The notes under the pieces are model-generated. The model was not told the DNA's origin. It saw only the letters and a list, made by a program, of their open reading frames with translations, and made no database searches. From Paucihalobacter ruber (lineage in GTDB: Bacteria > Bacteroidota > Bacteroidia > Flavobacteriales > Flavobacteriaceae): a stretch of DNA of 64,000 nucleotides. Shown here piece by piece: positions 44,353-60,006 of this stretch (position 1 is the first letter of the stretch; every line of letters begins with the position of its first letter). A program made the translations under genes and the position numbers. The stretch covers positions 684,736-748,735 of the forward strand of contig NZ_VHIQ01000001.1 of the NCBI RefSeq assembly GCF_006494535.1, written 5' to 3'.

Positions 44353-45087
44353 ATGATTTCAGTTGTAATAGTAGATGATGAATTAAGCGCTGTAGAAAGT
44401 CTGGTTTGGGAATTAAAGCATTTCAATACAGACATATCGGTTGTTGCTCAATTTACAAATCCTGAAGAAGCTATTGATTACCTAACAACCAATAACCCCG
44501 ATTGCCTTTTTTTAGATATTCAAATGCCAACTATGGATGGCTTTCAATTTCTTAACAAATTTCCAAAACGCGATTTCGCAGTAGTCATTACAACAGCTTA
44601 TAACGAATATGCCATCAAAGCCTTAAAACATGAAGCTATTGATTATTTATTAAAACCCATAGACTCTGATGATTTGCAGGAAACCATCAAAAAAATAAAA
44701 AAACATAAATCAAAACAAAAATCTGAACTCAATTTTGAATTGGCGTTTGAGCAGTTTAATGAGCGTTTTAACAAAAAAAAGGTGACCATTAATACAGACG
44801 GAAAACTTATTTTTATTGATGCAGATGACATTTTACTTGTCTCGGGTGATGGCAATTACAGCACTATCGAACTTGCCAATAATCAAAAAATTGTTGTAAC
44901 CAAAAAACTAAAAGAGGTTAATTCACTGTTGCCTCAAGATCACTTTTTTAGAATACATAATTCGTATATTATCAACCTCAATCACCTAAAGGAGTTTATA
45001 AAAAGTGATGGCTACGTAGTGTTAACCAATAACAAAAAAATACCTGTTGCCAGACAAAGAAAGTCAGATTTTCTTGAGAAGTTATAA
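44353..45087 (+). CDS. LytTR-type response regulator
   Basis: A 244-residue regulator. The receiver domain is at 1-120 with the acidic pocket V-D-D-E (D8, D9), the phosphorylation site F-L-D-I-Q-M-P (D55), and the conserved Thr and Lys in I-T-T-A-Y and L-L-K-P-I. The LytTR DNA-binding domain is at about 140-244, with F-F-R-I-H-N-S-Y-I-I-N-L-N-H-L. It precedes the kinase gene by 16 bp, and the pair forms a two-component system. Target sites are not known. Confidence 0.94.
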   Translation: MISVVIVDDELSAVESLVWELKHFNTDISVVAQFTNPEEAIDYLTTNNPDCLFLDIQMPTMDGFQFLNKFPKRDFAVVITTAYNEYAIKALKHEAIDYLLKPIDSDDLQETIKKIKKHKSKQKSELNFELAFEQFNERFNKKKVTINTDGKLIFIDADDILLVSGDGNYSTIELANNQKIVVTKKLKEVNSLLPQDHFFRIHNSYIINLNHLKEFIKSDGYVVLTNNKKIPVARQRKSDFLEKL

Positions 45088-45103
45088 GAGTTAATAGAAG
45101 TAA

Positions 45104-47047
45104 ATGTTTAAACCAGTGCCTCTTCTTTTTTGTTTGTTTTTCGTGCTGTTATTTGCACTTAATATACATGCACATGACAATCATGATTCGATAATAAATA
45201 GCCGATTACAGCTTCTTAAAAATGAAAAATTCAATAAGTACAACGTACTCGATTCAATTTTTAAAAGTGAGAAACGAGACACCTTTTTCTTAAGGCAGTT
45301 AGCCATTAAATCAAAGGCTAATAAAAATTTTCTAGCCGAAGGGTTTGCGCTTAATTTTTTAGGAATAGGCTACCGAAATGCCTCTTTGTACGATAAAGCC
45401 ATTGAACTCCACAAAGAGTCTTATGATGCGGCGATTTTGGCCGGCGATATTGAACTACAAGTAGTGGCTCTTAACATGATTGGCGTTGCTTACCGCAGGA
45501 TGGATCTTGTAAAACCAGCACTTGATTACCATACACAAGCACTAGACTTGGCCAATAACGTCAACAATAAAACCAGTCAATTAGAAGCCAGTATTGCGGT
45601 TTCTCAAAATAGCATTGGTAATATATATTTGGCGCTTAAGCGCTACGATCTGGCTATTAATCAATTTATGAAGTCCTTAAAAATAGAGGAAAAACTCAAC
45701 CAAAAATTGGGCTTGGCCATAAATTACCACAACATTGGTTATGCACAGGAAGCGCTGGGTAATTATAAAAGTGCAATGGAAAATTACCAGCGTTCGCTAA
45801 TGTTTAATAACGATATAAATTCAGATGTTGGACGAGTTATATGCTATAACAGTATTGGTTCACTTGAAATAAAACTTGGGAGACTTAATGAAGCCAAAGA
45901 AATTATTGAACAAGCCTTGAGTAAAGGTATTAAAATTGGAGACCAGTTTTATATTGCTAATTCTTACCTCAACTTGGGTTGGGTAAATTTAGAACTTAAA
46001 GAATTTGATATATCAAAGAAATATCTGGAAAAAGCTCTTGAAACGTCAAAGAAGTATAACCTTACCTCATCAGCTGTTGAAGCCAATAAAAAACTATCTG
46101 AACTTTACGAAGAATTAGGAGAACATCAACTGGCGTTAAAATATTACAAAACGGGCATAGATTTAGAAAACACCATTACCAACGAGCGCAACTTTCAATA
46201 TGTCAATGATATAGTACTTGAATATGAAGACGAAGTAAAAAACAAGCAAATCAAACTACTAGCCGACAGAAATGAAGAACTGTTAAAAAATCAAAAACTG
46301 TATTTGTTAGTTATTTTTAGCGTTGTGCTTTTAGCGGTAATTATGATTGCCCTTAACCGAAATCGACAATTGCGTCAGGAAAAGCAAATTTTAACGCTTG
46401 AACAAGATATGTTGAGAAGTCAAATGAATCCGCATTTCATATTTAATTCTTTAAATTCAATAAAGCATTTCATCATCAATAATGATCAGCAAAACGCGGT
46501 TTATTACCTTAACAAATTTGCCAAACTCATCAGAAAAATTCTTGTTTCCAACACCGAAAAACACATATCATTAGAAGACGAACTTGAAACTATGAAGTTG
46601 TATCTAAGTGTTGAGAATATGCGATTTTCTAATCAAATAGATTTTTCAATTCACATAGATCCAACAATTAATACAGCGGCCATTAAAGTGCCGTCGTTAA
46701 TTTTACAGCCATTTCTTGAAAATGCACTTTGGCATGGTTTATCGTCGAAAGCAGACGATAAAAAAATTAATCTTAAGGTAACCAAAGGCAGCAAAAATCA
46801 TGTGGCCGTTACCATTACCGACAATGGAATTGGGCGAGTAGAATCAGAAAAAATTAACAAAGACAAAAGTCTTAATCGTAAATCGGTTGGTTTAAACATT
46901 ACCAAAGCCAGACTTTCAAATTTTTCTAAACGTTTTACAACCGACTACAATTTAAAAATAACCGATTTGTACGACGACCATCAAAAAGCAATAGGAACAA
47001 AGGTGGAGTTGCTCATTCCAACAAATCCTGCGTTGCTGAAAACTTAA
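45104..47047 (+). CDS. TPR-containing sensor histidine kinase (LytS/YehU type)
   Basis: A 647-residue kinase. The signal peptide (1-24, ending I-H-A-H) leads to periplasmic TPR repeats (about 60-370). A membrane helix (about 398-418), a short coiled coil, and the His_kinase domain with M-N-P-H-F-I-F-N-S-L-N-S-I-K (phospho-His H444) follow. The HATPase domain comes last, with L-E-N-A-L-W-H-G and D-N-G-I-G-R. It should phosphorylate the LytTR regulator next to it. The signal sensed by the TPRs is unknown. Confidence 0.93.
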   Translation: MFKPVPLLFCLFFVLLFALNIHAHDNHDSIINSRLQLLKNEKFNKYNVLDSIFKSEKRDTFFLRQLAIKSKANKNFLAEGFALNFLGIGYRNASLYDKAIELHKESYDAAILAGDIELQVVALNMIGVAYRRMDLVKPALDYHTQALDLANNVNNKTSQLEASIAVSQNSIGNIYLALKRYDLAINQFMKSLKIEEKLNQKLGLAINYHNIGYAQEALGNYKSAMENYQRSLMFNNDINSDVGRVICYNSIGSLEIKLGRLNEAKEIIEQALSKGIKIGDQFYIANSYLNLGWVNLELKEFDISKKYLEKALETSKKYNLTSSAVEANKKLSELYEELGEHQLALKYYKTGIDLENTITNERNFQYVNDIVLEYEDEVKNKQIKLLADRNEELLKNQKLYLLVIFSVVLLAVIMIALNRNRQLRQEKQILTLEQDMLRSQMNPHFIFNSLNSIKHFIINNDQQNAVYYLNKFAKLIRKILVSNTEKHISLEDELETMKLYLSVENMRFSNQIDFSIHIDPTINTAAIKVPSLILQPFLENALWHGLSSKADDKKINLKVTKGSKNHVAVTITDNGIGRVESEKINKDKSLNRKSVGLNITKARLSNFSKRFTTDYNLKITDLYDDHQKAIGTKVELLIPTNPALLKT

Positions 47048-47086: not shown

Positions 47087-49924
47087 TTATTGCACTATAA
47101 GTTTTCTTTGAATACTTTGATTATTTAAATTATCATGAATTTTCACTAAATATAGTCCTTGAGGCATGTTGTCAACAGCAACCTGCAATTCCCTCGTAAC
47201 ATTCTTAAATTGTTTAATTAACTGACCTGAAATAGAGATCAACTCTATATCATATTGGCTGTTTGAATTAAGATTGATTTTAAACCAATCTTTTGCAGGG
47301 TTTGGGTATAAGGTAAAATTACCGGCCAGAAAATCCTGATTTGACAAGGATGCCTGTAAACTAAATTCAGAAGTATTGCCATTATCATCAGTTGCCGTAC
47401 CAACGATAAATTCATAATCATCTTGCCCAAAACCATCAGGAAATGTAACTAAAAAAGATTTTGGACCTGTCGTGGTATAGGTATCTGTTCCTAAATAAGT
47501 TTTGCCTTGACCGTTATCTGCTCCGAAGAATTCAACTGTTATTGGATAAGCAGAATTTGCAGGGTCACTTGGTACTTCATAAGAAATTTCAACTTGGTTA
47601 CCTCCAGAAAAATCAATACTGATTATTTCGGGATAGTTTTGAAGATTATTTGGTCCAGTGTCGGCATCACCCGGATCATTAGCATTGGCTCCTGCTAATC
47701 TGATTCCCTCACCAGAGTTTCCATAAATACTATTCTCAGAAATAGTAACTCCGGTTGCTGCACCTAAGGCCGGATCTAAAAATACGCCGTTGCCAGACCC
47801 TGATAATACATTTTTTGATATAAATGCACTTGTAATATTACCTGATAACACAATGCCTGATGAAACCCCTGTTCCATTTCCTACCACCGTTTCACCATCT
47901 ATGGCTAAACCAATTAAATTATTCAATATTTGATTACCATTAGAGCTAAAAATTAACAAAATGCCATCATTTCCGTTACCACTAATTACATTTCCTAAGT
48001 CTGCAGTTGCACCTCCAATAATATTGTTTGAACTATTTTGCAACACAATACCTGGAGCATTAATTCCACCCGGTAAATCAAATCCGTTAGATTGTAACCC
48101 GATAATATTTGAATACGCTTGAAGTTGGGTTGCCCCATTTAAAAGCAAATTTCTGGCACTACCGGCTGAAAGGCCATTTCCTGAAATAACGTTATGGTGA
48201 ATTTGAGTGCCTTCCAACAAACCAAAAGCTTGTACACCTATTTGATTTGGCAACGCCGAAGTACCGGCAGGATTTAACCCTACATAATTATAACTAATAT
48301 TGTGTCCTGTTCTTCTTACCGTTAAACCAACCTGATTCCCCGAAATAATATTTCTGCCTGACTCTTCTCCACCTATAGTTACCGCCTGGGCATTACTGGC
48401 TATATTAATACCCGAACTTTGATTTGGCACTGCCGAACTTCCGGAAGCATCTGTACCAATAAAATTGCCTTGTATAATTGTTCCAGTGCAATTCTCTTCT
48501 AAAGAAATACCTACATTATTACCCGAAATAATATTTCTGCTTCCCGCAATAGTTCCTCCAACTGTATTATTAACATCAAGTATAGCAACACCCGTTGGAT
48601 TTGCAACAGCTGTATTACCATTGCTATTAGTACCAATATAATTGCCAAAAATTTGATTGTTATTACCGGCCAAAATGGCCACACCTGTATTACTATTACC
48701 TGAAATTATATTTCTGGCTCCAGGAACCAAACCACCTATAAAATTATTGTTATTAACCCCCGAAAACAGTGCAACACCAATTTGATTAGACAAAGCCAAG
48801 TTTCCGGTAACGTCTACTCCAATTTTATTACCTTGAATAAAATTTTCGGTTACGGGTGAATCTTCATTCCCTTGAAAATAAACCCCATAAAACCCATTAC
48901 CCGAAATTAAATTTCCGTCTCCCGGGTTAATCCCACCAATTTCATTATTATTGGCGCCAAACAATAACAACACCCCGCCACGAAGATTAGGTATAGATTG
49001 AGTACCAGTTATATCCGTACCAATATAGTTGCCTAATATTCTATTGCCAGTTGCCGATGCACCTACAATGGAGAAACCGGTACCATCAAAAGTCTCATTT
49101 TGGTCATTTTTACCCCCTGAAATAATATTCCTCGCCTCCGGAACTGCACCGCCAATGGTATTATTAGAAGAATTTATGAGTTGGACGTTAAATCGGTTAC
49201 CTCTGTTTAACGTTGCTGTAATATCAGTGCCTATGAAGTTTCCTTGCACCAAATTATTTGTGCCGTTTTGAAAGGTTAACCCACCCGAAAAATTACCTGA
49301 AATAATATTGCCTTCATTTGGATTTATACCACCTACAAGACTATTACTACTATTGTTAAACAGAATGCCGCCGCCCGTATTGGTAAATAAGGTTGTACCA
49401 TCAGATCTTAAACCTATATAGTTCCCTTGAAACGTAATATTATCAACAAAATTGACCAAAACACCAAAACCAAAATTAAACGGACTCACATCTTGTTCCT
49501 GAAATCCACCTATAGACATTCCATACATCTCGCTACCATGGGCATTACCGGTAAACTGAATACCTTGGTAACCAGCACCCAACAAGGTGCCGTCTATTTC
49601 AATTAAAGGTGCATTTGTATAACCTGTTTGGGTTCTTCCATCAACTACTGCAGGCTGTTGAATTGGCGGTAAAACATCAGACACTACTTGAATTTGAAAT
49701 GGTGCTGTTCCGCTTATATCAAATGCAATGATATCTTTATTTGAAGTTTTATTAGCATTTTGAATAGCAGCTCTAAAAGAGCAGTTACCGTTACTGTCTG
49801 CGCAAATAGTGTCGCTTAAGTCTGCGTCTTCGGTATCGTCGGTGGTATTTACGGTGTAAGTTACTTGAGCGTGTGTGAACGCCATAAAAATAAATGTAAA
49901 GAATAGTGTAAAGTTTGTTCTCAT
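47087..49924 (-). CDS. Secreted right-handed beta-helix protein with T9SS tail
   Basis: A 945-residue secreted protein. After the signal peptide (1-19) comes a CSLREA-like start (N-T-T-D-D-T-E-D-A, G-N-C-S-F-R-A-A-I-Q-N-A-N). Then there are about twelve repeats built on N-x-I-G-G, R-N-I-I-S-G-N, G-V and G-N-x-I-G-T-D, which fold as a parallel beta-helix. The C-terminal 75 residues (F-T-L-Y-P-N-P-A-K-D-W, G-L-Y-L-V-K-I) are a T9SS type A sorting domain. It is the last gene of the operon driven from 53571. Adhesin or surface-layer roles fit the fold, but the ligand is unknown. Confidence 0.88.
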   Translation of the reverse strand: MRTNFTLFFTFIFMAFTHAQVTYTVNTTDDTEDADLSDTICADSNGNCSFRAAIQNANKTSNKDIIAFDISGTAPFQIQVVSDVLPPIQQPAVVDGRTQTGYTNAPLIEIDGTLLGAGYQGIQFTGNAHGSEMYGMSIGGFQEQDVSPFNFGFGVLVNFVDNITFQGNYIGLRSDGTTLFTNTGGGILFNNSSNSLVGGINPNEGNIISGNFSGGLTFQNGTNNLVQGNFIGTDITATLNRGNRFNVQLINSSNNTIGGAVPEARNIISGGKNDQNETFDGTGFSIVGASATGNRILGNYIGTDITGTQSIPNLRGGVLLLFGANNNEIGGINPGDGNLISGNGFYGVYFQGNEDSPVTENFIQGNKIGVDVTGNLALSNQIGVALFSGVNNNNFIGGLVPGARNIISGNSNTGVAILAGNNNQIFGNYIGTNSNGNTAVANPTGVAILDVNNTVGGTIAGSRNIISGNNVGISLEENCTGTIIQGNFIGTDASGSSAVPNQSSGINIASNAQAVTIGGEESGRNIISGNQVGLTVRRTGHNISYNYVGLNPAGTSALPNQIGVQAFGLLEGTQIHHNVISGNGLSAGSARNLLLNGATQLQAYSNIIGLQSNGFDLPGGINAPGIVLQNSSNNIIGGATADLGNVISGNGNDGILLIFSSNGNQILNNLIGLAIDGETVVGNGTGVSSGIVLSGNITSAFISKNVLSGSGNGVFLDPALGAATGVTISENSIYGNSGEGIRLAGANANDPGDADTGPNNLQNYPEIISIDFSGGNQVEISYEVPSDPANSAYPITVEFFGADNGQGKTYLGTDTYTTTGPKSFLVTFPDGFGQDDYEFIVGTATDDNGNTSEFSLQASLSNQDFLAGNFTLYPNPAKDWFKINLNSNSQYDIELISISGQLIKQFKNVTRELQVAVDNMPQGLYLVKIHDNLNNQSIQRKLIVQ

Positions 49925-49942
49925 AATTATAAAATTTAATGG

Positions 49943-50656
49943 TTAAAAATATTTTGCCGTCCAGATAATCCCGGAAAAATCGGTTGGTGATTTTATCTTG
50001 ATTTTATTGGGTTTATTGGTGATTTCGTTGGAATTGGTTTCGAATATGTCTAGGATTTCGTATTCGATTAGGTTATAGCCTTTTTTTAAGTTTAAATCAA
50101 CCTGATATTCCATATCAATTTTAAAGTCTGCAATTTCCCAGGTGTTTTCGCAAGTAGTTTTAATTTCGGCATCTTCGGTGACGTAGATGATTTCATAATA
50201 AGATCCAAGAACCGGCTGCATATAAGCATCGTCTTCTAACCACGGTATTAATTCTTTATTTGAAACAGCAAATACACTGCCGGCCCAGCCGCTTCTTTTA
50301 CCTTCTCTCCAAAGTGCAAAGTAACCACCTCTAAAACCTTTTAAGCTCTCACTCACTTTTAAATCGGATGAATTGCCACATCTAAACTTAACAATGTATT
50401 CAAAGTTTAAAAGGTCGTCATGAACCACATTTGAAGGTAATTGAATACTTGAAAATTCAGGGATATTTACCTCTAAAGTTCCATCATCTTTAAGCTTACC
50501 AATTGATACGCGATTGTCCATATCAAAAGGCATGATGATAAAATCCATTTCGGGAAGGTCTTTTTGAAAATTGTCTAGTTTTGAGCTAAAGTTTTGGGAT
50601 TGCAACAACCCGCACAATAGTATAAACAATATCACAAGTATTAGTTTTGTTTTCAT
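49943..50656 (-). CDS. Exported protein of unknown function, paralogue of 51318-52067
   Basis: A 237-residue protein with a signal peptide (1-20, ending L-L-Q-S-Q). The C-terminal half repeats the pattern of the gene at 51318: Y-Y-E-I-I-Y-V-T-E-D, T-T-C-E-N, then D-L-N-L-K-K-G-Y-N-L-I-E-Y-E-I-L-D-I-F. The two probably arose by tandem duplication. No known domain is recognised. It is the fifth gene of the six-gene operon. Confidence 0.75.
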   Translation of the reverse strand: MKTKLILVILFILLCGLLQSQNFSSKLDNFQKDLPEMDFIIMPFDMDNRVSIGKLKDDGTLEVNIPEFSSIQLPSNVVHDDLLNFEYIVKFRCGNSSDLKVSESLKGFRGGYFALWREGKRSGWAGSVFAVSNKELIPWLEDDAYMQPVLGSYYEIIYVTEDAEIKTTCENTWEIADFKIDMEYQVDLNLKKGYNLIEYEILDIFETNSNEITNKPNKIKIKSPTDFSGIIWTAKYF

Positions 50657-50668
50657 AATGCTAAAATT

Positions 50669-51268
50669 TTATTCCGGAAAGGAAAGCTGTATCACCTCAT
50701 CTAAGGCCTTGGTTAATTGGTTACCGGGTATATGCCTACCTGTAAGATTGATATGAAACCTTTGGTTTTTTATCATATCTATACTTGAGGTTACGGTAGA
50801 CTGAATACCTGTTTTTTCTGTTTTTGTTTGTTCTTTAACTAAAACACTTTGGCCGTTGTGCATAGTTGTTTTGGCCCATCCGTTTTCAAAAGAGGTGTTG
50901 GTACTTGTATTTAATTCTTTAAAAATTGCATTTACGTGCGGCATTCCAACAGTTCCCGCGCCATCAACTATTGTTACGCTAATGGTAGAGCTCATGTAGT
51001 TAGGATCTGGTACTTTGCTATATGTTCCAATCACCTTTTGTACTCCTATACTTTCAACACCTACAAGCGGCATATCTTGCAATTCTGCAGGAAATAATTT
51101 GGTTAATTCTTCGGCATTAAGCGCACTTTGTTCCGATAATTTTATAAGCCAGGCGTCGTTATCAGCGGAAGTTTCAAATTCGTCAACAATTTTATTCACC
51201 TTAGAATTATTACATCCAAAGACGAAAATCGATATAATTACAATGAAAAAGCACTTATTAAAATTCAT
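50669..51268 (-). CDS. Putative lipoprotein of unknown function
   Basis: A 199-residue protein with lipobox V-F-G-C (Cys19), followed by N-N-S-K. The mature protein is mixed alpha/beta, with S-T-I-S-V-T-I-V-D-G-A-G-T-V and a terminal I-P-G-N-Q-L-T-K-A-L-D-E-V-I-Q-L-S-F. No family is recognised. The residue after Cys is Asn, not acidic, so it may face the periplasm. It is the fourth gene of the operon, between the two paralogous exported proteins. Confidence 0.75.
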   Translation of the reverse strand: MNFNKCFFIVIISIFVFGCNNSKVNKIVDEFETSADNDAWLIKLSEQSALNAEELTKLFPAELQDMPLVGVESIGVQKVIGTYSKVPDPNYMSSTISVTIVDGAGTVGMPHVNAIFKELNTSTNTSFENGWAKTTMHNGQSVLVKEQTKTEKTGIQSTVTSSIDMIKNQRFHINLTGRHIPGNQLTKALDEVIQLSFPE

Positions 51269-51317
51269 TTTAACTTATTTGATGATGTTTTTTTCGATTG
51301 ATTTTTTAGCGTTCTGA

Positions 51318-52067
51318 TTAGTTATCTCCTAAAACCACCCACTTTAAGTCCTCGGGTACAAATTCTACCACGCTTACGGTTGTTTGTTTAGGAAACACCT
51401 TACCGGTTGACGAATTAAACACTTCGGTTATTTCATATTTAACGATATTCCAACCTTCAACAAGATTTAGATTATAGGTTTTAATATTATCATATAATTC
51501 TTCTCCATTGCCTGTATATGTTGACCTTTCGCAAGTACCGGAAACAGTTGCCGGTTTTTCAACATAAATCCACTCAAGGTAATATCCTGTTGTTGGATTG
51601 TCATCTCCATAACTATATAGCCATTTAGCGATGGGTGCATCGCTTACCATAAATAAATACCCGTATTCTGTGTTGCCATCTTTACTCATTACACTGAGTT
51701 GTGGTACACCTGTTACGATGGCGTCTTGATTGTTATATTCCAACGGATTGTCAAATCCACCGCAAACAAAGGTGTCTCCGATGGTTTTAAAACGCATAGT
51801 CCAACCTTTGGGCGCACCCTTTTGAGCCTCTGCAGCTTTTTTCTTAAAGGTTTCCAAGTAATCATATTCCAATTGCATGTTCAAAACACCATTAGCATCA
51901 ATGCTTCCCCAACTTTTAATATTATCGGTCATGATATCGGCATAGGCCAATATGGATTTGCCGTTGGTCCAATTATCGATTTTGCCTTCAATAGATAATT
52001 GGGCATTTAAATTACTGGCGTAGCAAATAAAAAATGCTACTATGCCAAGTTTGAGTGTTGTTTTCAT
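51318..52067 (-). CDS. Exported protein of unknown function, paralogue of 49943-50656
   Basis: A 249-residue protein with a signal peptide (1-22, ending S-N-L-N-A-Q). A conserved C-terminal segment reads Y-Y-L-E-W-I-Y-V-E-K-P-A-T-V-S-G-T-C-E and L-N-L-V-E-G-W-N-I-V-K-Y-E-I-T-E-V-F, matching its paralogue downstream. An acidic loop D-D-N-P-T-T-G-Y lies between. It is the third gene of the operon. No biochemical function can be assigned. Confidence 0.75.
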   Translation of the reverse strand: MKTTLKLGIVAFFICYASNLNAQLSIEGKIDNWTNGKSILAYADIMTDNIKSWGSIDANGVLNMQLEYDYLETFKKKAAEAQKGAPKGWTMRFKTIGDTFVCGGFDNPLEYNNQDAIVTGVPQLSVMSKDGNTEYGYLFMVSDAPIAKWLYSYGDDNPTTGYYLEWIYVEKPATVSGTCERSTYTGNGEELYDNIKTYNLNLVEGWNIVKYEITEVFNSSTGKVFPKQTTVSVVEFVPEDLKWVVLGDN

Positions 52068-52102
52068 AAAGAAGTAATAAAGGTTTTGTATAAGATTATA
52101 TA

Positions 52103-52651
52103 TTAATAATGAGCGCTTTTGATGTAAAATTCCCCTTCGGTGACTGAAACCTTTTGTCTGTTTACAGGGTTGATCACTACACCTGAAAATGTGCCTTTAA
52201 CATGGGTGTTAGTAAGCTGATTAATTTTCAAGAAAGATTCCGGGTTATCAACATCCGTCATATACATTGCAGATTGAGATACATCCATAAAAGCAAGTGT
52301 AACGCCTTTAAATCCGTATTCAAATTGCTTTCCTCCCGAGTAACTTCCAACACCAATTTTTCCGGTTTGTCTTATAATTATAGAAATGCTGTTTGTGACA
52401 GAATAATCGTTGTCATCTATATTTGAAGCGCTTAAAACGCCATCGTGAACATTGTCTATATAAAGACCAAAACTAGCACTAAGTTGTTCATTTTTATTAT
52501 ATTCAACCCACTTCCCGTTGACTTTAGCCTTCAAAAAATATGTCTCAATTGTGTTTTGAGCCGGCTTTTCGAATTGCACGTACTCACCTTTTGTGATACC
52601 TAAAAAAATAAGTACAAATGTTATAGCTACCAGAGAATTGATGAGTTTCAT
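52103..52651 (-). CDS. Exported protein of unknown function (182 residues)
   Basis: The ATG at 52651 gives a short hydrophobic leader (M-K-L-I-N-S-L-V-A-I-T-F-V-L-I-F-L-G) without a clear Ala-x-Ala or lipobox, so it may be anchored or cleaved at T-K-G. The body is beta-rich, with W-V-E-Y-N-K-N-E-Q-L and G-S-Y-S-G-G-K-Q-F-E-Y-G-F-K. No family is recognised. The frame extends upstream to 52723, but that would overlap the preceding gene and spoil the leader. It is the second gene of the operon. Confidence 0.7.
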   Translation of the reverse strand: MKLINSLVAITFVLIFLGITKGEYVQFEKPAQNTIETYFLKAKVNGKWVEYNKNEQLSASFGLYIDNVHDGVLSASNIDDNDYSVTNSISIIIRQTGKIGVGSYSGGKQFEYGFKGVTLAFMDVSQSAMYMTDVDNPESFLKINQLTNTHVKGTFSGVVINPVNRQKVSVTEGEFYIKSAHY

Positions 52652-52662
52652 TGCATAAATTT

Positions 52663-53481
52663 TTATAATAATTGATACCCTGCAGTATTTAACTCGTAAC
52701 TGATTGTTTCTAAAGCCGTACATTCCATGGTGCCTGAGGTGTTTTTCTTACCCTTATTTTTTTTGTCTTTCATATCCATATACATCATCAATGCATTTTG
52801 GTTGTCTTTAAAATGGCTTCTCAATGCAGGTGGTATTCTGTCCGGATCAGATTTAAACACGTCGTTAAAACTCACCGGGGCATCGTTAGTGAAGTACATA
52901 ATAAAAACATAGTCGTCGCTCTCCATTTGCATGCCTTGACAGTCAAAACCCAGAAAGGTTTTGTTGGGCAGATTTGTAATGGTGTAATCTTCCAGGTCGT
53001 TAAATTCCTCATCAAACTCATCAGAAACATCTAAAGAGGTGGCCGTGCAAATTTTAGAATCTTTAGATTCCATAAACATATAGGTGATATTCTCTGCGCC
53101 ATCCATCACCATCAACATTTTAGGGCCAACATTCATCGAAACACCCATATAACTTGCCCCCGGTTTAAGCATGTAATCCATACTCATTTGGTCCTTTCCA
53201 GAGGAGATTTGAAGTTGATATTTATATTCAAAGCTGAAGCTTTCGGGTAAATTTTGTGGGGTTACTTTTTTTCCTTGTTTGCCACCGCCGAAGTTAGGGT
53301 CAAAAACCTTATCCATAGATTTGCTTGCTTGTTCAGCAGCCTTATCAGCAGTTTTGTTGATAACCGTCTGCTCAACCTGATCTTCAACTTTCTTTTTTAA
53401 TTTTTTTAGAAATTGTGCTTCTGCACTGAAGGTAAATAGCATGTAAATTGAAAATGCCATTATGATTGGTTTTGTCTTCAT
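52663..53481 (-). CDS. DUF4412 domain exported protein
   Basis: A 272-residue protein with a signal peptide (1-22, ending A-E-A-Q), followed by a Lys/Ala helical stretch (24-60, F-L-K-K-L-K-K-K-V-E-D-Q-V-E). A beta-rich DUF4412-like domain follows (about 80-240): F-S-F-E-Y-K-Y-Q-L-Q-I-S and E-N-I-T-Y-M-F-M-E-S-K-D. It is the first gene of the six-gene operon, about 85 nt after the predicted transcript start. Members are exported proteins of unknown role. Confidence 0.8.
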   Translation of the reverse strand: MKTKPIIMAFSIYMLFTFSAEAQFLKKLKKKVEDQVEQTVINKTADKAAEQASKSMDKVFDPNFGGGKQGKKVTPQNLPESFSFEYKYQLQISSGKDQMSMDYMLKPGASYMGVSMNVGPKMLMVMDGAENITYMFMESKDSKICTATSLDVSDEFDEEFNDLEDYTITNLPNKTFLGFDCQGMQMESDDYVFIMYFTNDAPVSFNDVFKSDPDRIPPALRSHFKDNQNALMMYMDMKDKKNKGKKNTSGTMECTALETISYELNTAGYQLL

Positions 53482-53570
53482 TTGTTTGCGTTTTTTAATA
53501 TTTATTCTTGATTTTTTTTGAATTGTTTTTATTATGATTTTTTAAGTAAAAAACATCCAATTTGTTGACA

Positions 53571-53636
53571 CAAAGTTTTATTAAAACAGCCAATCAAGCT
53601 ATCACTTATGTAACAAATGCTATAACATATGTAACA
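53571..53636 (-). promoter_or_regulatory. AraC-like direct-repeat promoter of the six-gene operon
   Basis: Two 18-bp direct repeats (plus-strand reading GCTATCACTTATGTAACA at 53598-53615 and GCTATAACATATGTAACA at 53619-53636) start 21 bp apart. AAACTTTG (53578-53571, minus strand) is a 7/8 -7 box. The proximal repeat ends 19 bp before it and so overlaps the -33 region. The same layout recurs at 55260-55325. Confidence 0.75.
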
Positions 53637-53639
53637 TTT

Positions 53640-53937
53640 ACCGAGATTTTTGGGCTTTTTTTGTTGATAAGAGGTGATTACGGGAATATCTGCAAAAATT
53701 TATTTCAATTAAATCAAAACGCGTTTTAAAGAACAATAAAAACACCATCACAAGAAAACAATTGAATAATAAAAACGTGAAGTTATACTGTAAATGAACT
53801 ACCTGAAAATTGTATGAAATCGCCATTTGAAACGAAATGGGTAATATGGCCTCTATAAAATGATTTAAAAAAAAATTAGATTTTAATCTACCATGTAGAT
53901 AAATTAATCTTAATGAAACCGTAATACATTTTAAACA
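53640..53937. other. Gene-free stretch between operator and terminator
   Basis: AT-rich sequence. A 62-codon minus-strand frame (53638-53826) has a hydrophobic stretch but no promoter box or conserved pattern. The lower part (to about 53675) still resembles the sequence beside the second operator (T-rich, then GTTGATAAGA). Confidence 0.5.
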
Positions 53938-53969
53938 AAACCACTCTAGTTATTTTACTAAAGTGGTTT
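53938..53969 (-). terminator. Terminator of the T9SS repeat gene
   Basis: AAACCACT (53938-53945) pairs with AGTGGTTT (53962-53969), with an inner AGT/ACT pair. On the minus strand TGTTT follows. It lies 31 bp after the stop at 54001. Confidence 0.65.
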
Positions 53970-54000
53970 CTATATTTTTAATAAGATGAACGTCTAAATT

Positions 54001-55203
54001 CTAATGCTTAACAACCAACTGTTTTGCCACAGTATGTAATTGGTCACTTAATTTTAAAACATATAAACCATCTGTTATATTTTGGGTAGAAATGGTGAAA
54101 TCTGAGTTTAATTTGCCCTGTTTTACCAAACGACCGGACATATCATATATGGTATAATTTAGTGCAGATTGATCTTGCGAAAGATTTAAAATTTTAATAT
54201 GACCGTTTGAAGGATTAGGGTAAAAACTAAAATCGAAAGTTGTAAATTCCTCTGTTGATAAAGACTGACAAGCAGGGTAGATAAAAGTAACTCTCGCAGT
54301 GTTCTCCCAATCGACACCATTGTATTCTTGTAAAATTATTTGTGCTATTAAGCCATCGCCATTGTAGCTTAAAAGGCTTCTGTCTTCGGGTACATACTCA
54401 AAGCCATCCCAATAGGAGGTTATAACTTCAGAAATAGTAGATCCTGTGTAAAAATAGGTTCTCAATTCTGAACTGTCCCAAGCTGTGCCGGCTGCATTCC
54501 ATTCCTCATAGGCTTCTTGTACTAACAAATCAGAAGCATCGTAAGTATAAACTGTTCTGTTGGCATTTTCCCAAGCTGTATTCTCTGCATTACGCAGCTG
54601 AAATAAATCATCCAGCAACTGATTAGACACGGTGTAATTGTAAAGCGTTCTGCTAAACAACACCCAATTAGCGCCATCCCAATTAGATTCAATTTCTTCG
54701 GTTAAATTATCACCGGTATACGTGTATTGAAATCTAAAACTGTTCAACCAATTTGCGCCATCCCAATTAGACACGATTTCCTCTGTTAGATTACTGCCGG
54801 TATAGGTGCTTTGAGTTCTCAAACTATTCACCCAACTGGAGCCAGTCCAAATAGATTCTATTTCATCGGTTAGATTATCGCCAGTATAAGTATTTTGGGT
54901 TCTGGAACTATTAATCCAAGTACCCGCATTATTTATCTGATTAATGATTTCTATTACCTGTTTTTCTGAATTATAGCTATATATTGACCTGGTAGATTCC
55001 AAACCCGAAATTAAAGTCGTAATTGTTTCTACTAAACAATCCACATTAAACGTTGCTTCTTGGGTTGCAATCTCGTTCCAATCTGTTCCTGTCCATTCGT
55101 CTATGGTAAGTGTTTCAGGTTGCTGGCCAAATTCATTTTCAAAGAATTGCGCGTGCGCATTAACAAACAAAAGCAAAGTAATTAAAAGTGTAATTTTTTT
55201 CAT
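54001..55203 (-). CDS. T9SS-secreted YD-like repeat protein
   Basis: A 400-residue secreted protein. The signal peptide is 1-19 (ending A-H-A-Q). Eight repeats of about 28 residues (73-304) follow the pattern Y-T-G-x-N-L-x-E-E-I-x-S-x-W-D-G-A-N-W-x-N-S-x-R, recalling the YD/RHS beta-hairpin repeats. The C-terminal 75 residues, with F-Y-P-N-P-S-N-G and G-L-Y-V-L-K-L, form a T9SS type A sorting domain. It has its own promoter (55260-55325) with the same direct repeats as the six-gene operon. It lies 196 bp downstream of the hybrid sensor gene on the same strand. Confidence 0.88.
   Translation of the reverse strand: MKKITLLITLLLFVNAHAQFFENEFGQQPETLTIDEWTGTDWNEIATQEATFNVDCLVETITTLISGLESTRSIYSYNSEKQVIEIINQINNAGTWINSSRTQNTYTGDNLTDEIESIWTGSSWVNSLRTQSTYTGSNLTEEIVSNWDGANWLNSFRFQYTYTGDNLTEEIESNWDGANWVLFSRTLYNYTVSNQLLDDLFQLRNAENTAWENANRTVYTYDASDLLVQEAYEEWNAAGTAWDSSELRTYFYTGSTISEVITSYWDGFEYVPEDRSLLSYNGDGLIAQIILQEYNGVDWENTARVTFIYPACQSLSTEEFTTFDFSFYPNPSNGHIKILNLSQDQSALNYTIYDMSGRLVKQGKLNSDFTISTQNITDGLYVLKLSDQLHTVAKQLVVKH
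54292..54987 (-). repeat. Eight tandem repeats of about 84 bp within the T9SS gene
   Basis: The coding repeats (residues 73-304) are about 28 codons each. Repeats 2-4 (between 54640 and 54905) are close at the DNA level, suggesting recent duplication and possible copy-number variation. Confidence 0.75.
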
Positions 55204-55259
55204 GTGAATACAATTTGAAAGATTAATAGTCTATGATAGTTTCTAATAATTTGTTGATA

Positions 55260-55325
55260 CAAAGGTTTATGAAAACTGTCTATCGGGCTATCACATATGT
55301 AACAAATGCTATCACATATGTAACA
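55260..55325 (-). promoter_or_regulatory. AraC-like direct-repeat promoter of the T9SS repeat gene
   Basis: Two identical 18-bp direct repeats (plus-strand GCTATCACATATGTAACA at 55287-55304 and 55308-55325) start 21 bp apart. AACCTTTG (55267-55260, minus strand) is a 7/8 -7 box at the same 27-bp offset as in the copy at 53571. Further similarity upstream (GTTGATAAGA) suggests a duplicated control region. Confidence 0.75.
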
Positions 55326-55399
55326 TTTTGAAGGGTTTTTGTGTTGATAAGAAGAGGTTTAAAAGAACCAACCGGATTTGAATATTCTAGTCTAAAAAA

Positions 55400-58300
55400 T
55401 TAATCTCCATTAAAATACTCTAAAGGTGATTTTCCGTAAGTGTCCTTAAAACTTTTGGCAAAATAGGAAGGTGAGTTGAATCCGGATGAATAGGCTACTT
55501 CAGCTACGTTAGCATTTGAATTTTGCAGTAAGTTAACAGCGTATTTTAAACGCTGTGATTTAATAAATGCCGTAGTGCTCAATCCTGTTAATGCTACTAG
55601 TTTTCTGTGAAGTTGCATTCTACTCATCCCAATTTCTTTGCTAAAACTTTCAGCACTAAATTCTGGATTTACAAGATGTTCGTCTAAAATTTGTTGAAGT
55701 TTATTTAGAAATTTCTCATCGGTGGCGGTAATAGCTATATCTTTTGGCTCAAGTGAAATAGCCTGCTGATATCGCATTCTAAGATTGTTTCTTATTTCGA
55801 TGAGTTTTTGAACTCTAATTTGAATTTTTTCAGGGTTAAAAGGTTTTAGAATATAATCGTCTGCGCCGGTTTTTAAACCAATTAACTCGTTTTCTTCTCC
55901 ACTTTTCGCCGTGAGTAAAATAATGGGCACATGCGATGTTTTTTCATCCTCTTTTAAAGTATTGCAAAGTGTAATACCATCGGTTTTAGGCATCATGATG
56001 TCTGAAATAATTACATCAGGAATGTATTGAAATGCTTTATTGATACCATCAAGACCGTCTTGCGCTTGAATAACGTTGTATTTTGGCTCAAAAAGTCTGG
56101 TTAAAAATTGCAACATATCTGTATTATCCTCAACCACAAGAATAATTTCCTTTTCTGATAGTTGTTGAGATGACTCTTCTTCTTGCGTCAATATATGTTT
56201 TAATTCTTGCGCAGTTGGCTCTTGTAGATCTGATTGGTTAAATAGCGTTTTTTCAACCGGTATATTAATCAAAAATTGTATGGTTTTATCGTTTAAATAT
56301 TCAGCTTTTATAGTGCCTTTATTAAGCGCTACTAATTCTTTAATTAAGGAGAGGCCTATTCCAAATCCTTCGTTATTTGAATCGATTTGATAAAAACGAT
56401 CAAATATTTTTTCAAGCTCTTGCTCTTTAATTTCAGTAATCGTATTTTGAACTGATAGCATTAGATGTCCCTCCTGGATCAAAGCATTAAAAATAATCTC
56501 GCCTCCTTTTGGGGTATATTTTACAGCATTTGAAAGAAGGTTATTTATTATTTTCTCTAAAACATCTGTATCGTACCACGCAAACTGGGTAACCTCAATA
56601 TTGTTAGATAATTTTAGTGGTTTTTGAACTGCCAAGGGCACAAATGATGAAACAATAGCATGTAAAAACAATTCTATATTGCTGTAAGATACTTTAAGTT
56701 TGATGAAACCAGATTCCAGCTTAGACAATTCTAATAGTTGATTTACCAATCCTGATAATTTATTGGCGTTTCTGTCTACCAAGATTAAATCTTCGCGTGC
56801 TTCGCTAGATAAATCGTTGCTTTGCAATTGTTTTTTAACAGGAGCCGATATTAAGGTTAATGGCGTTCTAAACTCATGCGATAAATTGGCATAAAGCTTT
56901 GTTTTATAATCATTTAATTGCTTAAGCCTTTCTGCTTTATCATGCTCAACTTTTAATTCTAATTGCATTTGCCAGCGAACTTTAAAATAGGTATAGATTA
57001 AATACGATGCTAATAAAGTTAAAAGTGTATAAATTACTATTGCACCCGTACTTGAGTACCATGGTTTTAATATTTTGAATGAAAATTGAGCCGGCGACTG
57101 GCTCCAAACACCATCATAGTTGCTCGAAAGCACTTTAAAACTGTAATCGCCAGCAGGTAAATTGGTGTATCTGGCAAAATTAATGTTAGAGGCTTGACTC
57201 CAGTTTTCGTCGTACCCTTCAAGCTGATACCTAAAATAATTTTTGTGCGGTAAGGAAAACTGTAAACTAGAAAATGTAAGGGTTAAAGTGTTTTGAAATG
57301 ATTTTAACTTTAATTTTTCTGAAACATCCATTTCTGTATTGTTCACCTCGAGCTTTGAAATTACTGTTTTTGGCGGTTCTGAGTTATTTTTTATGTCTTT
57401 AGGATTTAACCAGTAAAACCCATCCAAAGCACCAAAATAAATATCGCCATTTTTTGAGGTGTGGTAAGCTCCGGTATTAAATTCAATAGACAATCCATCG
57501 TAGCTGGTGTAGTTTGTAATTCCTGGTTGTTCATCCCATGTTTTTGGAGGCAAGAACAGTGAAATTCCTTTGTTAGAGCTCAACCAAAACCGCCTCTTTT
57601 CGTCTGGCATAATCGCGTAGATAACATTATTTGCCAATCCATCTTCAATTGAATAATTATATAATTTTTGAGATATTAAATCGATGGCCATAATACCATT
57701 ACCGGCAGAACCAATCCACAATACCTGATCATTTTGATACAGTAATGTTTTGATGGCGTAATTGTATTGAATCTGCGATTGATTTTGAAATAAAATTCGA
57801 CTAAAATCTTCATAGCTGCCAGTTGCCGTGTTAAGTTTAAGGATATGTCTTTCTTCTGTTGCAACCCATAAAAAGCCGGGCTCGGCATTAATCACTACCC
57901 TAATATTGTTACTTGGGAAATTTTTTTGATCCTTGGAAAAAGAATTGACAACACCCTTATTTTTATCAAACTGAATTAACCCCTGTTGCCCGGTTGCCAG
58001 CCAGATATGATCATTATAATCTTCATGAATTCTCCAAATAGTATTAGCATCGACTCTGGCTGTGGGGTGGTTTTTATATTGAATAAATCTTTCATTCTTG
58101 TCTTTTAGATGTAACCCACCATCTTGAGTGCCTACCCAAAGGTTATTTTGTTTGTCAACATGCAAACTCATAATTCTGTCGCAGGCTAAACCAAAAGATT
58201 CGTTACTTTCTAAAAAGGTTTTCCAACTTTCGTCATTAGGATTAAATTTTGTTAATCCCTTACCACTTGTGCCAACCCAAATCACCCCATCGCTGTCAGT

Positions 58301-59386
58301 AACCACAGACCTTACAACGTCAATATTGATATCTTCCGGGGCTAAGAAGTTAGTATAATAATTAAATTTGTCTAAATATTCATCGTAATAACTTACACCA
58401 GCCCCATCGGTTCCAAACCACAAAACCCCTGAAAAATCTTCATAAATAGATAAGATATCATTGTAATGAATAGTTTTTGGATTGTTCTTTTTTACAGTAA
58501 ACTGCCTAATAAGTGATTCGTCAAAATTAACTTTAAACAAGCCACTGCCGTAAGTACCAACCCATAGATTGTTTTTAGAATCCATAAACAAAGACAAAAC
58601 ATAAATATTTTTTAACTTGTCTAAATCTTTAAACCGATCATCATTAAAATATTTAAATTGCTCATCATTTACACCTTTTACCCAAAGTCCGTCACCAAAA
58701 GTTCCTGCAAAAATGTCGTTGTTACTATTAATTACAATACTTCCAAAATGAATTTCTTCGATCAAATCTGGCTTATAATTTGTAATTTTTCGACTAATTA
58801 AATTGTAAGAAATCATTTTGCCTTTGCAACCAATCCAAAGTTTTCCGTTGTTATCTTCGGTTATTGCATAAATTTTAGAGGTAATTTCAGGAGCAAGTAT
58901 TTGTTCAATCTCACCCGAATCGTGGTTCAATTTAAACAAACCGTTTTGGTAAGTTCCAAACCAAAGATTGAGTTGTAAATCTTGGAATATACAGCTTACA
59001 TCCTTTAATTCCGGTATGGGCAAAAATGTATCTCTTTGAACGTTGTATTTGTGGGGTATGTTTGAACTGGGAATGATCCAGAGGTTATCCTCTTTATCTA
59101 GGTAAATTTTTCCTAAATCACTATAGTCAACGTTAGTGATATCGGTAAACAAAAACTCGTATTTCTTGAAGCTTTGGCCATCATATTTATTTAAACCATC
59201 CTGTGTTGCCAGCCATAAATAACCTGTAGAATCTTGTGCAATTGAAATAACACTGTTTTGCGAAAGTCCTTCCTTAACCGAAAGCTGTCTAAAGGTAATC
59301 TGAGATTGCGCACCAACTTTATAAACAAAAAGTTGTACAATCAATAAAAAGGCTAGCCTAAAATTGAAATTTAAACGCAAGAACAT
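55400..59386 (-). CDS. Hybrid two-component system with AraC output (HTCS)
   Basis: A 1,328-residue one-piece sensor, kinase, receiver and regulator. The signal peptide (1-26) leads to a periplasmic sensor of two beta-propellers (Reg_prop repeats such as G-Y-L-W-L-A-T-Q-D-G-L-N-K-Y-D and L-W-I-G-T, about 30-690). Then come a Y_Y_Y domain (about 715-775), a membrane helix (about 785-805), HisKA (L-S-H-E-F-R-T-P-L, H837), HATPase, a receiver (I-S-D-I-M-M-P, D1129) and an AraC helix-turn-helix (about 1225-1328). Such proteins usually control nearby polysaccharide genes; here the neighbours are secreted proteins with AraC-like operators. Confidence 0.95.
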   Translation of the reverse strand: MFLRLNFNFRLAFLLIVQLFVYKVGAQSQITFRQLSVKEGLSQNSVISIAQDSTGYLWLATQDGLNKYDGQSFKKYEFLFTDITNVDYSDLGKIYLDKEDNLWIIPSSNIPHKYNVQRDTFLPIPELKDVSCIFQDLQLNLWFGTYQNGLFKLNHDSGEIEQILAPEITSKIYAITEDNNGKLWIGCKGKMISYNLISRKITNYKPDLIEEIHFGSIVINSNNDIFAGTFGDGLWVKGVNDEQFKYFNDDRFKDLDKLKNIYVLSLFMDSKNNLWVGTYGSGLFKVNFDESLIRQFTVKKNNPKTIHYNDILSIYEDFSGVLWFGTDGAGVSYYDEYLDKFNYYTNFLAPEDINIDVVRSVVTDSDGVIWVGTSGKGLTKFNPNDESWKTFLESNESFGLACDRIMSLHVDKQNNLWVGTQDGGLHLKDKNERFIQYKNHPTARVDANTIWRIHEDYNDHIWLATGQQGLIQFDKNKGVVNSFSKDQKNFPSNNIRVVINAEPGFLWVATEERHILKLNTATGSYEDFSRILFQNQSQIQYNYAIKTLLYQNDQVLWIGSAGNGIMAIDLISQKLYNYSIEDGLANNVIYAIMPDEKRRFWLSSNKGISLFLPPKTWDEQPGITNYTSYDGLSIEFNTGAYHTSKNGDIYFGALDGFYWLNPKDIKNNSEPPKTVISKLEVNNTEMDVSEKLKLKSFQNTLTLTFSSLQFSLPHKNYFRYQLEGYDENWSQASNINFARYTNLPAGDYSFKVLSSNYDGVWSQSPAQFSFKILKPWYSSTGAIVIYTLLTLLASYLIYTYFKVRWQMQLELKVEHDKAERLKQLNDYKTKLYANLSHEFRTPLTLISAPVKKQLQSNDLSSEAREDLILVDRNANKLSGLVNQLLELSKLESGFIKLKVSYSNIELFLHAIVSSFVPLAVQKPLKLSNNIEVTQFAWYDTDVLEKIINNLLSNAVKYTPKGGEIIFNALIQEGHLMLSVQNTITEIKEQELEKIFDRFYQIDSNNEGFGIGLSLIKELVALNKGTIKAEYLNDKTIQFLINIPVEKTLFNQSDLQEPTAQELKHILTQEEESSQQLSEKEIILVVEDNTDMLQFLTRLFEPKYNVIQAQDGLDGINKAFQYIPDVIISDIMMPKTDGITLCNTLKEDEKTSHVPIILLTAKSGEENELIGLKTGADDYILKPFNPEKIQIRVQKLIEIRNNLRMRYQQAISLEPKDIAITATDEKFLNKLQQILDEHLVNPEFSAESFSKEIGMSRMQLHRKLVALTGLSTTAFIKSQRLKYAVNLLQNSNANVAEVAYSSGFNSPSYFAKSFKDTYGKSPLEYFNGD

Positions 59387-59439: not shown

Positions 59440-60006
59440 TTATTTAATGGCTTTGGCAACTTCCTCTAAAGCGTTATACCAGTCTTCGCCGAATTTTCTA
59501 ATAAGCGCCTCTTTTACAAATTTATAAACCGGGACCTGTAATTCTGCGCCTAAAGTACAGGCCGGATCGCAAATTTCCCAGCGGTTGTAATTAACGGCGG
59601 CAAACTCGGTGTATTCTTTTACCCTTAATGGATAGAGATGGCAAGACACGGGTTTTTTCCAATCTATAACACCTTTGTTTTGGGCTTCTTCAATACCACA
59701 AAGTGCTATACCTTGCTTGTTAAAGGTAACATAAGCACATTCGTTGCCGTCAACCAGAGGTGTTTCGTGCTCATCAAAGGCATTGGTAATGTGAGTGCCT
59801 TGTTCTTCAATAGCCTTAATACCTTCAGGTCTTAAAAATGGTTTTATTTTGGGATAAATTTCTTTTAAAATTTGGGTTTCTTGCGCCTCTAATGGAGCGC
59901 CGGCATCACCCTTAACGCAGCAAGCACCTTTACAGGCCGAGAGATTACAAACAAAATCGTTGCTTAAAATTTCTTCTGAAACTATGGTTTTTCCTAACTG
60001 AAACAT
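59440..60006 (-). CDS. DUF3109 family cysteine-rich protein
   Basis: A 188-residue cytoplasmic protein of the DUF3109 (YkgJ-like) type, probably binding an iron-sulfur or zinc centre. Conserved cysteines are in F-V-C-N-L-S-A-C-K-G-A-C-C, N-E-C-A-Y, A-L-C-G-I, S-C-H-L-Y-P-L-R and I-C-D-P-A-C. The length fits the family. It is a single minus-strand gene upstream of the HTCS gene. Its biochemical role is unknown. Confidence 0.85.
   Translation of the reverse strand: MFQLGKTIVSEEILSNDFVCNLSACKGACCVKGDAGAPLEAQETQILKEIYPKIKPFLRPEGIKAIEEQGTHITNAFDEHETPLVDGNECAYVTFNKQGIALCGIEEAQNKGVIDWKKPVSCHLYPLRVKEYTEFAAVNYNRWEICDPACTLGAELQVPVYKFVKEALIRKFGEDWYNALEEVAKAIK

Follow-up and report, generated by a model that had tools for sequence, protein, structure and literature searches.

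In Escherichia coli, AraC binds araI1-I2 as two head-to-tail half-sites 21 bp apart, near the core promoter. Head-to-tail half-sites at the same spacing, close to a core promoter, are found in the DNA described here, but the E. coli protein differs from the regulator encoded beside them in being a one-component sugar sensor, without phosphorylation or a membrane sensor. That regulator is a protein of the same kind as the hybrid two-component systems (HTCSs) of Bacteroides PULs, which likewise have 21-bp direct repeats. According to excerpts of Ravcheev 2013 (PMC3878776), every motif predicted for Bacteroides HTCSs is a direct repeat, the mean distance being 21 bp. Their regulons were sought beside susC/susD, and the same excerpts mention 11 HTCSs that are unlinked to susC/susD. 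The locus described here differs in having surface proteins as targets and a fixed distance between operator and promoter box. The mechanism outlined for BT4124 in the available part of PMC11253607, together with PDB entry 12aw, involves a receiver with an AraC domain and an S/CHIP contact, which reads SHVP in the present regulator. The targets named there for this type are susCD promoters, unlike those described below. Two known surface systems resemble the targets by family names only, namely the SprB-type gliding adhesins (a SprB repeat in the target on contig C14) and the mosaic adhesive trimer fibres of Bdellovibrio (Peptidase_S74, YadA head and mosaic-adhesive-trimer matches in the targets of relatives). 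The remFG-sprCDBF operon of F. psychrophilum is reported, in an excerpt of PMC9723704, to stand under other promoter motifs. HTCSs with 21-bp direct repeats are thus known already. Among the matches listed from the open-licence literature, no description was found of an HTCS subclass with such an operator, a fixed box distance and a surface regulon.

It is very probable that the HTCS encoded in the window (the whole stretch of 64,000 nucleotides that was analysed) activates a regulon of surface proteins via a 21-bp direct-repeat operator, as one instance of an HTCS subclass that is widespread in its family (Flavobacteriaceae, judging by the named relatives).

Operators and regulator in the window

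Table 1 Features of the locus (positions in the window)
Feature	Position	Strand	Remarks
HTCS, 1328 aa	55400-59386	minus	Pfam: Reg_prop propeller and Y_Y_Y sensor, HisKA, HATPase_c, receiver, C-terminal AraC HTH
Operator 2	55287-55325	minus	TGTTACATATGTGATAGC, att, TGTTACATATGTGATAGC; 18/18 identical, starts 21 bp apart
-7 box of operator 2	55260-55267	minus	AACCTTTG, starts 19 bp past operator
Target 1, exported repeat protein, 400 aa	54001-55203	minus	Type IX C-terminal sorting domain, PF18962 1.6e-13
Operator 1	53598-53636	minus	18-bp direct repeats, 16/18 alike, starts 21 bp apart
-7 box of operator 1	53571-53578	minus	AAACTTTG, starts 19 bp past operator
Target 2, exported DUF4412 protein, opens gene run	52663-53481	minus	Basic N-terminal helix; predicted fold possibly LolA/RseB-like
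Small exported protein, target run	52103-52723	minus	DUF6252 match under Pfam cut-off
Exported protein, target run	51318-52067	minus	Paralogue of 49943-50656 (E 5.6e-11); Pfam family none
Probable lipoprotein (from sequence), target run	50669-51268	minus	Pfam family none; weak homologues in other site loci
Exported protein, target run	49943-50656	minus	Paralogue of 51318-52067; Pfam family none
Repetitive surface protein, 945 aa, ends run	47087-49924	minus	PF18962 7.3e-13; TIGR04183; CSLREA under cut-off
TPR histidine kinase	45104-47047		
LytTR response regulator	44353-45087		

The two operators of the window are nearly the same, operator 1 being the sequence of operator 2 with two changes, and in 60 shuffles of each operator stretch no repeat exceeded 13 and 15 matching positions of 18, respectively. 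Operator 2 lies ~75 bp past the HTCS stop codon and ~85 bp ahead of 54001-55203; operator 1 lies ~120 bp ahead of 52663-53481. Both -7 boxes fit TAnnTTTG with one mismatch, and transcription is expected to start near 55255 and near 53566, respectively. A genome-wide scan at up to 3 mismatches gave three copies of the 39-bp site and 0 matches to the reversed control; the third copy, on contig C14 (360608-360646), is identical to operator 2. A sequence-only reading of this DNA had described 18-bp direct repeats 21 bp apart at both promoters, at an equal 27-bp offset from a -7 box. The spacing is indeed 21 in each, and at both promoters 27 bp separate the end of the site from the end of the box. 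Many unrelated genome copies, which according to that reading would count against it, were not found, as the scan for repeat pairs gave only the three.

The regulator had been read as a hybrid two-component protein ending in an AraC domain, an architecture that Pfam confirms. Phosphoacceptor motifs are present at residues 836 (SHEFRTP) and 1128 (SDIMMP), and Met1257, within SRMQLHRK, is a residue of the recognition helix. The nearest solved chains are 4a2l and 3v9f for the sensor and 12aw for the receiver with the DNA-binding part. The contact motif of the receiver is SHVP; SHIP, CHIP or SHVP is kept in 48 of 54 members of the clade defined below. Upstream of the HTCS gene, at ~54 bp and on the same strand, lies a DUF3109 gene (59440-60006) that is possibly co-transcribed with it.

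Operator and regulator in related genomes

At up to 3 mismatches, the site in the spelling of the window was not found in the 298 other family genomes. Orthologous HTCSs of several further genera are nevertheless followed by a similar pair, at exactly 21 bp. The motif was generalised to TGTTACATNNNTNNTANNNNNTGTTACATNNNTNNTA, i.e. TGTTACAT-N13-TGTTACAT, and with up to 2 mismatches allowed it was found in 72 of 299 family genomes, representing 66 of 236 genera; the reversed motif gave single matches in 6 genomes. Outside the window genome there are 112 sites, among which 54 lie directly behind a same-strand HTCS gene and a further 12 are accompanied by an HTCS at another place in the stretch; overall, an HTCS is found within 600 bp of 59/115 sites. 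For the other 46 of the 112, an HTCS is absent from the fetched stretch. Some of these sites are probably distal targets, like the site on C14, and a few are probably chance matches. Nine motif genomes have no HTCS of the clade; 7 of their 10 sites lack the box, and these box-less sites are probably chance matches, at about the number predicted by the control.

The clade was delimited with a DNA-binding profile built from the 54 site-adjacent domains, at a cut-off of E 1e-44 picked after a gap in the scores had been seen, and profile search placed clade HTCSs in 88 of 299 family genomes. This cut-off is somewhat strict, because G208, just past it, has mismatch-free sites and exact boxes. To avoid circularity, 47 genomes that had contributed rows to the profile were removed; a clade HTCS was then found in 16/25 motif genomes compared with 25/227 others (Fisher p = 1e-8). 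These last 25 clade genomes have no site at up to 2 mismatches. For 20 clade HTCSs from them, the 500 bp past the stop codon were searched with a half-site matrix at spacings of 10 to 40. The top pair stood at exactly 21 bp in 18/20 and was equalled in no more than 3 of 100 shuffles; the remaining two had no pair. A 21-bp pair was seen in 1/20 non-clade HTCSs, this comparison set being the rows just under the clade cut and therefore non-random. Binding of the HTCS to the repeats of the window is well supported by this comparative evidence.

Furthermore, a set of 80 named loci was picked by peptide patterns of the DNA-binding domain only, 8 of them repeating earlier loci. A 21-bp pair was found in 51/80, including loci of Maribacter halichondriae, Arenibacter, Algibacter lectus, Aquimarina macrocephali, Winogradskyella marina and Flavobacterium filum; no convincing 21-bp pair was found in 29/80, among which 4/5 Algoriphagus loci. 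The box is missing in 8 of the 51 positives (3/34 at an identity of at least 50%, 5/17 under 50%). Because of the 29 negative loci and the 8 positives without box, the border of the clade is blurred. The sensors of the clade vary: of 54 site-adjacent HTCSs, 26 exceed 1200 aa, as does the propeller type of the window, and 27 have 850-1100 aa, one HTCS carries TPRs (L141) and another has no Pfam sensor domain (L097). At least two sensor architectures thus appear to share one operator.

The DNA-binding domains also covary with their operators. In 106 domain-operator pairs (all used for base counts; 12 fall in neither base class and were omitted from the information measure), the domain column most informative on half-site bases 3-4 is the x of the recognition helix SRxQLHRK, i.e. 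Met1257 of the window HTCS. Where this position holds Met, base 4 is T in 173/174 half-sites; where it holds Thr or Ser, base 4 is A in 33/38. The covariation is supportive and not independent proof, because the tree shows no more than 2 or 3 changes of the recognition residue. As to the distribution of the variants, TGAAACAT-type half-sites replace TGTTACAT, and Thr or Ser replaces Met, in one sub-lineage (L181, L189, L190, L196, L246, L270).

Target genes

Operator 2 precedes a single exported repeat protein, and operator 1 precedes a run of six closely spaced minus-strand genes (53481-47087). The claim that two of the targets are type IX-secreted was upheld by Pfam, which finds PF18962 above the curated cut-off in 54001-55203 and 47087-49924, a type A sorting domain such as marks type IX cargo. 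The model of 52663-53481 (pLDDT 78) matches RseB with Z 10.2 and an rmsd of 3.9 over 143 residues, LolA proteins reaching a Z of at most 8.6; Foldseek gives E 7e-7 for RseB but a TM of only ~0.4. The site on C14 lies ~140 bp before a gene of >2400 codons that runs into an N stretch and in which Pfam recognises CARDB (five stretches), fn3-type, InlB-like and SprB repeats. From its domains it appears to be a giant adhesin-like gene.

The genes that come first behind a site, 100 of them, contained, by Pfam, Peptidase_S74 (12), type IX sorting domains (12), OmpA (8), YadA head (7), DUF4412 (5) and FGE-sulfatase (3); by NCBIfam, 9 matched a family of mosaic adhesive trimer fibres (at E 0.001, not the curated cut-off). 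Farther behind the sites lie 156 more genes; in the 109 of these that were scanned, along with one window protein, the same classes recurred (OmpA 12, type IX 10, S74 9, DUF4412 9, YadA head 8). A good many of the targets belong to no known family. A signal peptide was predicted, by a crude home-made rule, in 82/99 first genes compared with 470/1102 others, and the stretches of 36/104 site loci contain a DUF4412-like protein. A basic helix past the signal peptide (like AQFLKKLKKKAEEAAERT...; 53302-53418 in the window) is common to exported DUF4412-type and OmpA-type proteins and is also seen in other loci (L137, L167, L135, L227:7692, L263:5544). Of 39 proteins with such a helix, 31 are among the 255 ORFs in gene runs behind the operator and 8 among 1292 other ORFs. 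The basic helix of these proteins may belong to a fibre-anchoring machinery.

Carbohydrate loci look different. Among 89 proteins behind 20 clade HTCSs picked independently of the motif, type IX (7), OmpA (5), S74 (4), collagen (4) and 3-keto-disaccharide hydrolase (2) were found, compared with sulfatase (14), TonB-receptor plug (8) and SusD-like (5) among 66 proteins behind 20 other HTCSs. No SusC/SusD, PF00884 sulfatase or glycosidase is among the best 25 families shown for the 100 first and 109 further genes, a list that goes down to families with a single member and in which further singletons may be hidden; nor, save for the 3-keto-disaccharide hydrolase, is any among the best 25 shown for the 89 clade-neighbour proteins. 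A regular expression for SusC proved almost powerless (1/20 in the positive control), so that Pfam scans were relied on. In the window itself none of these families was listed by Pfam for the 10 proteins scanned (the HTCS, the seven targets and the LytTR pair), as the sequence-only reading had stated. The window HTCS thus has no SusC/SusD or carbohydrate-active targets of the kind that define a PUL HTCS and that the 20 other HTCSs, as positive control, do show. As a rule, the clade does not appear to sit in the usual sugar-utilisation loci.

That this same regulator is nevertheless an HTCS of the ordinary glycan-utilisation type, its surface proteins binding or scavenging in an unusual polysaccharide locus, is considered unlikely. 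Its sensor is related to the solved HTCS sensors 4a2l and 3v9f, surface repeat proteins can bind glycans, and an FGE-sulfatase domain (3/100 first genes) or a 3-keto-disaccharide hydrolase (2/89 proteins behind clade HTCSs) does occur. A link to a sugar is possible for the window HTCS, because binding of oligosaccharides is ascribed to HTCSs with a sensor like its own (PMC3878776, in excerpt). However, the SusC/SusD, PF00884 and glycosidase families, which are frequent behind the 20 other HTCSs, are missing from the best 25 families shown behind sites. The pairing of HTCS and operator, the AraC-type 21-bp geometry and the non-glycan surface targets, as put forward from the sequence, are supported by the comparative tests. 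The proposed local module for surface proteins held good as to the surface targets; it is not purely local, given the third site on C14 and the many related loci.

Promoter geometry

The distance between site and box found in the window recurs in relatives. For 100 of the 111 sites counted, TAnnTTTG, with one mismatch allowed, begins exactly 19 bp downstream; four of the 115 sites, inside a long ORF or near a contig end, were excluded from this count, and over all 115 the box is present in 101. Exact boxes turned up 44 times within the 80 bp scanned, and 43 of them are at the 19-bp position. Since the -7 box spans -12 to -5 relative to the transcription start (PMC9723704, in excerpt), the operator would occupy ~-70 to -32, where activators that contact the polymerase typically bind.

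The HTCS might instead repress these promoters, and an excerpt of PMC11253607 does mention a Bacteroides HTCS repressor, BT2391. This reading is regarded as improbable: the downstream edge of the site, at ~-32, stays short of the -7 box by a rigid distance, and the S/CHIP motif, which the same excerpt connects with phosphorylation-gated DNA binding, persists in the 48/54 clade members mentioned above.

Loss in a related genome and the LytTR neighbour

Only one other genome of the genus was searched (G069, 89% complete). Its HTCS, 82% identical, stops at ~residue 1171 beside transposase genes (L038 11316-16258), which by a reading of their domains are of IS3 type. The counterpart of ~47.0-55.9 kb, with the targets, is missing from the fetched stretch. 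The output domain of the clade, the N-terminal part of the C14 adhesin and the operator site were not found in this genome. The LytTR pair is kept as far as the fetched stretch reaches. These losses fit one functional unit lost together, and may also represent one deletion next to an insertion element plus chance.

The LytTR pair of the window (44353-47047) may be an old neighbour of the HTCS; LytTR relatives of 63-65% identity lie near an HTCS in six other loci. LytTR proteins also bind direct repeats, ~21-22 bp apart, and the pair adjoins the target cluster. It is nevertheless very unlikely that the LytTR regulator, with its TPR histidine kinase, is what binds the repeats. In a LytTR regulon the regulator would be conserved with the site, and a relative is found in 10/106 site loci, including the window and the six at 63-65% identity. 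It is absent from the fetched stretch in 96/106, compared with an HTCS at up to 600 bp from 59/115 sites, and G069 retains the LytTR gene, as far as the fetched stretch covers it, yet has no site.

The reading of the repeats as mobile or chance sequence with no regulatory role can practically be dismissed: operator 2 and the C14 copy do share 48 consecutive identical bases, but the motif recurs in 66/236 genera at a fixed box distance, and the window genome holds only 3 copies.

Proposed mechanism and significance

In the favoured reading, activation by the HTCS, the propeller/Y_Y_Y domain would sense an extracellular ligand, upon which the HTCS would autophosphorylate and pass the phosphate to its own receiver, freeing the AraC domain. 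Two AraC domains would then sit as a head-to-tail dimer on the pair of TGTTACATnnnTnnTA half-sites, which are separated by two helical turns and cover ~-70 to -32, and would bring polymerase to the -7 box fixed 19 bp downstream. Three units would be switched on, i.e. 54001-55203, the six-gene run 53481-47087 and the giant adhesin-like gene on C14; a role of their products in adhesion may be supposed.

It seems somewhat more probable than its opposite that the clade as a whole, present in 88/299 family genomes, is an unnamed HTCS subclass with at least two sensor architectures and one output domain and operator (TGTTACATnnnTnnTA twice at 21 bp, 19 bp from a -7 box), controlling the deployment of fibres and adhesins. 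HTCSs have mostly been studied as switches for eating polysaccharides. The operator pattern is a ready tool for finding members of the regulon in other genomes, and operator and fixed promoter distance together form a candidate inducible promoter for flavobacteria, which can be tested with reporters. Through a large subclass that switches surface and adhesin-like proteins instead, environmental Bacteroidota would couple what they sense in their surroundings to their cell surface.
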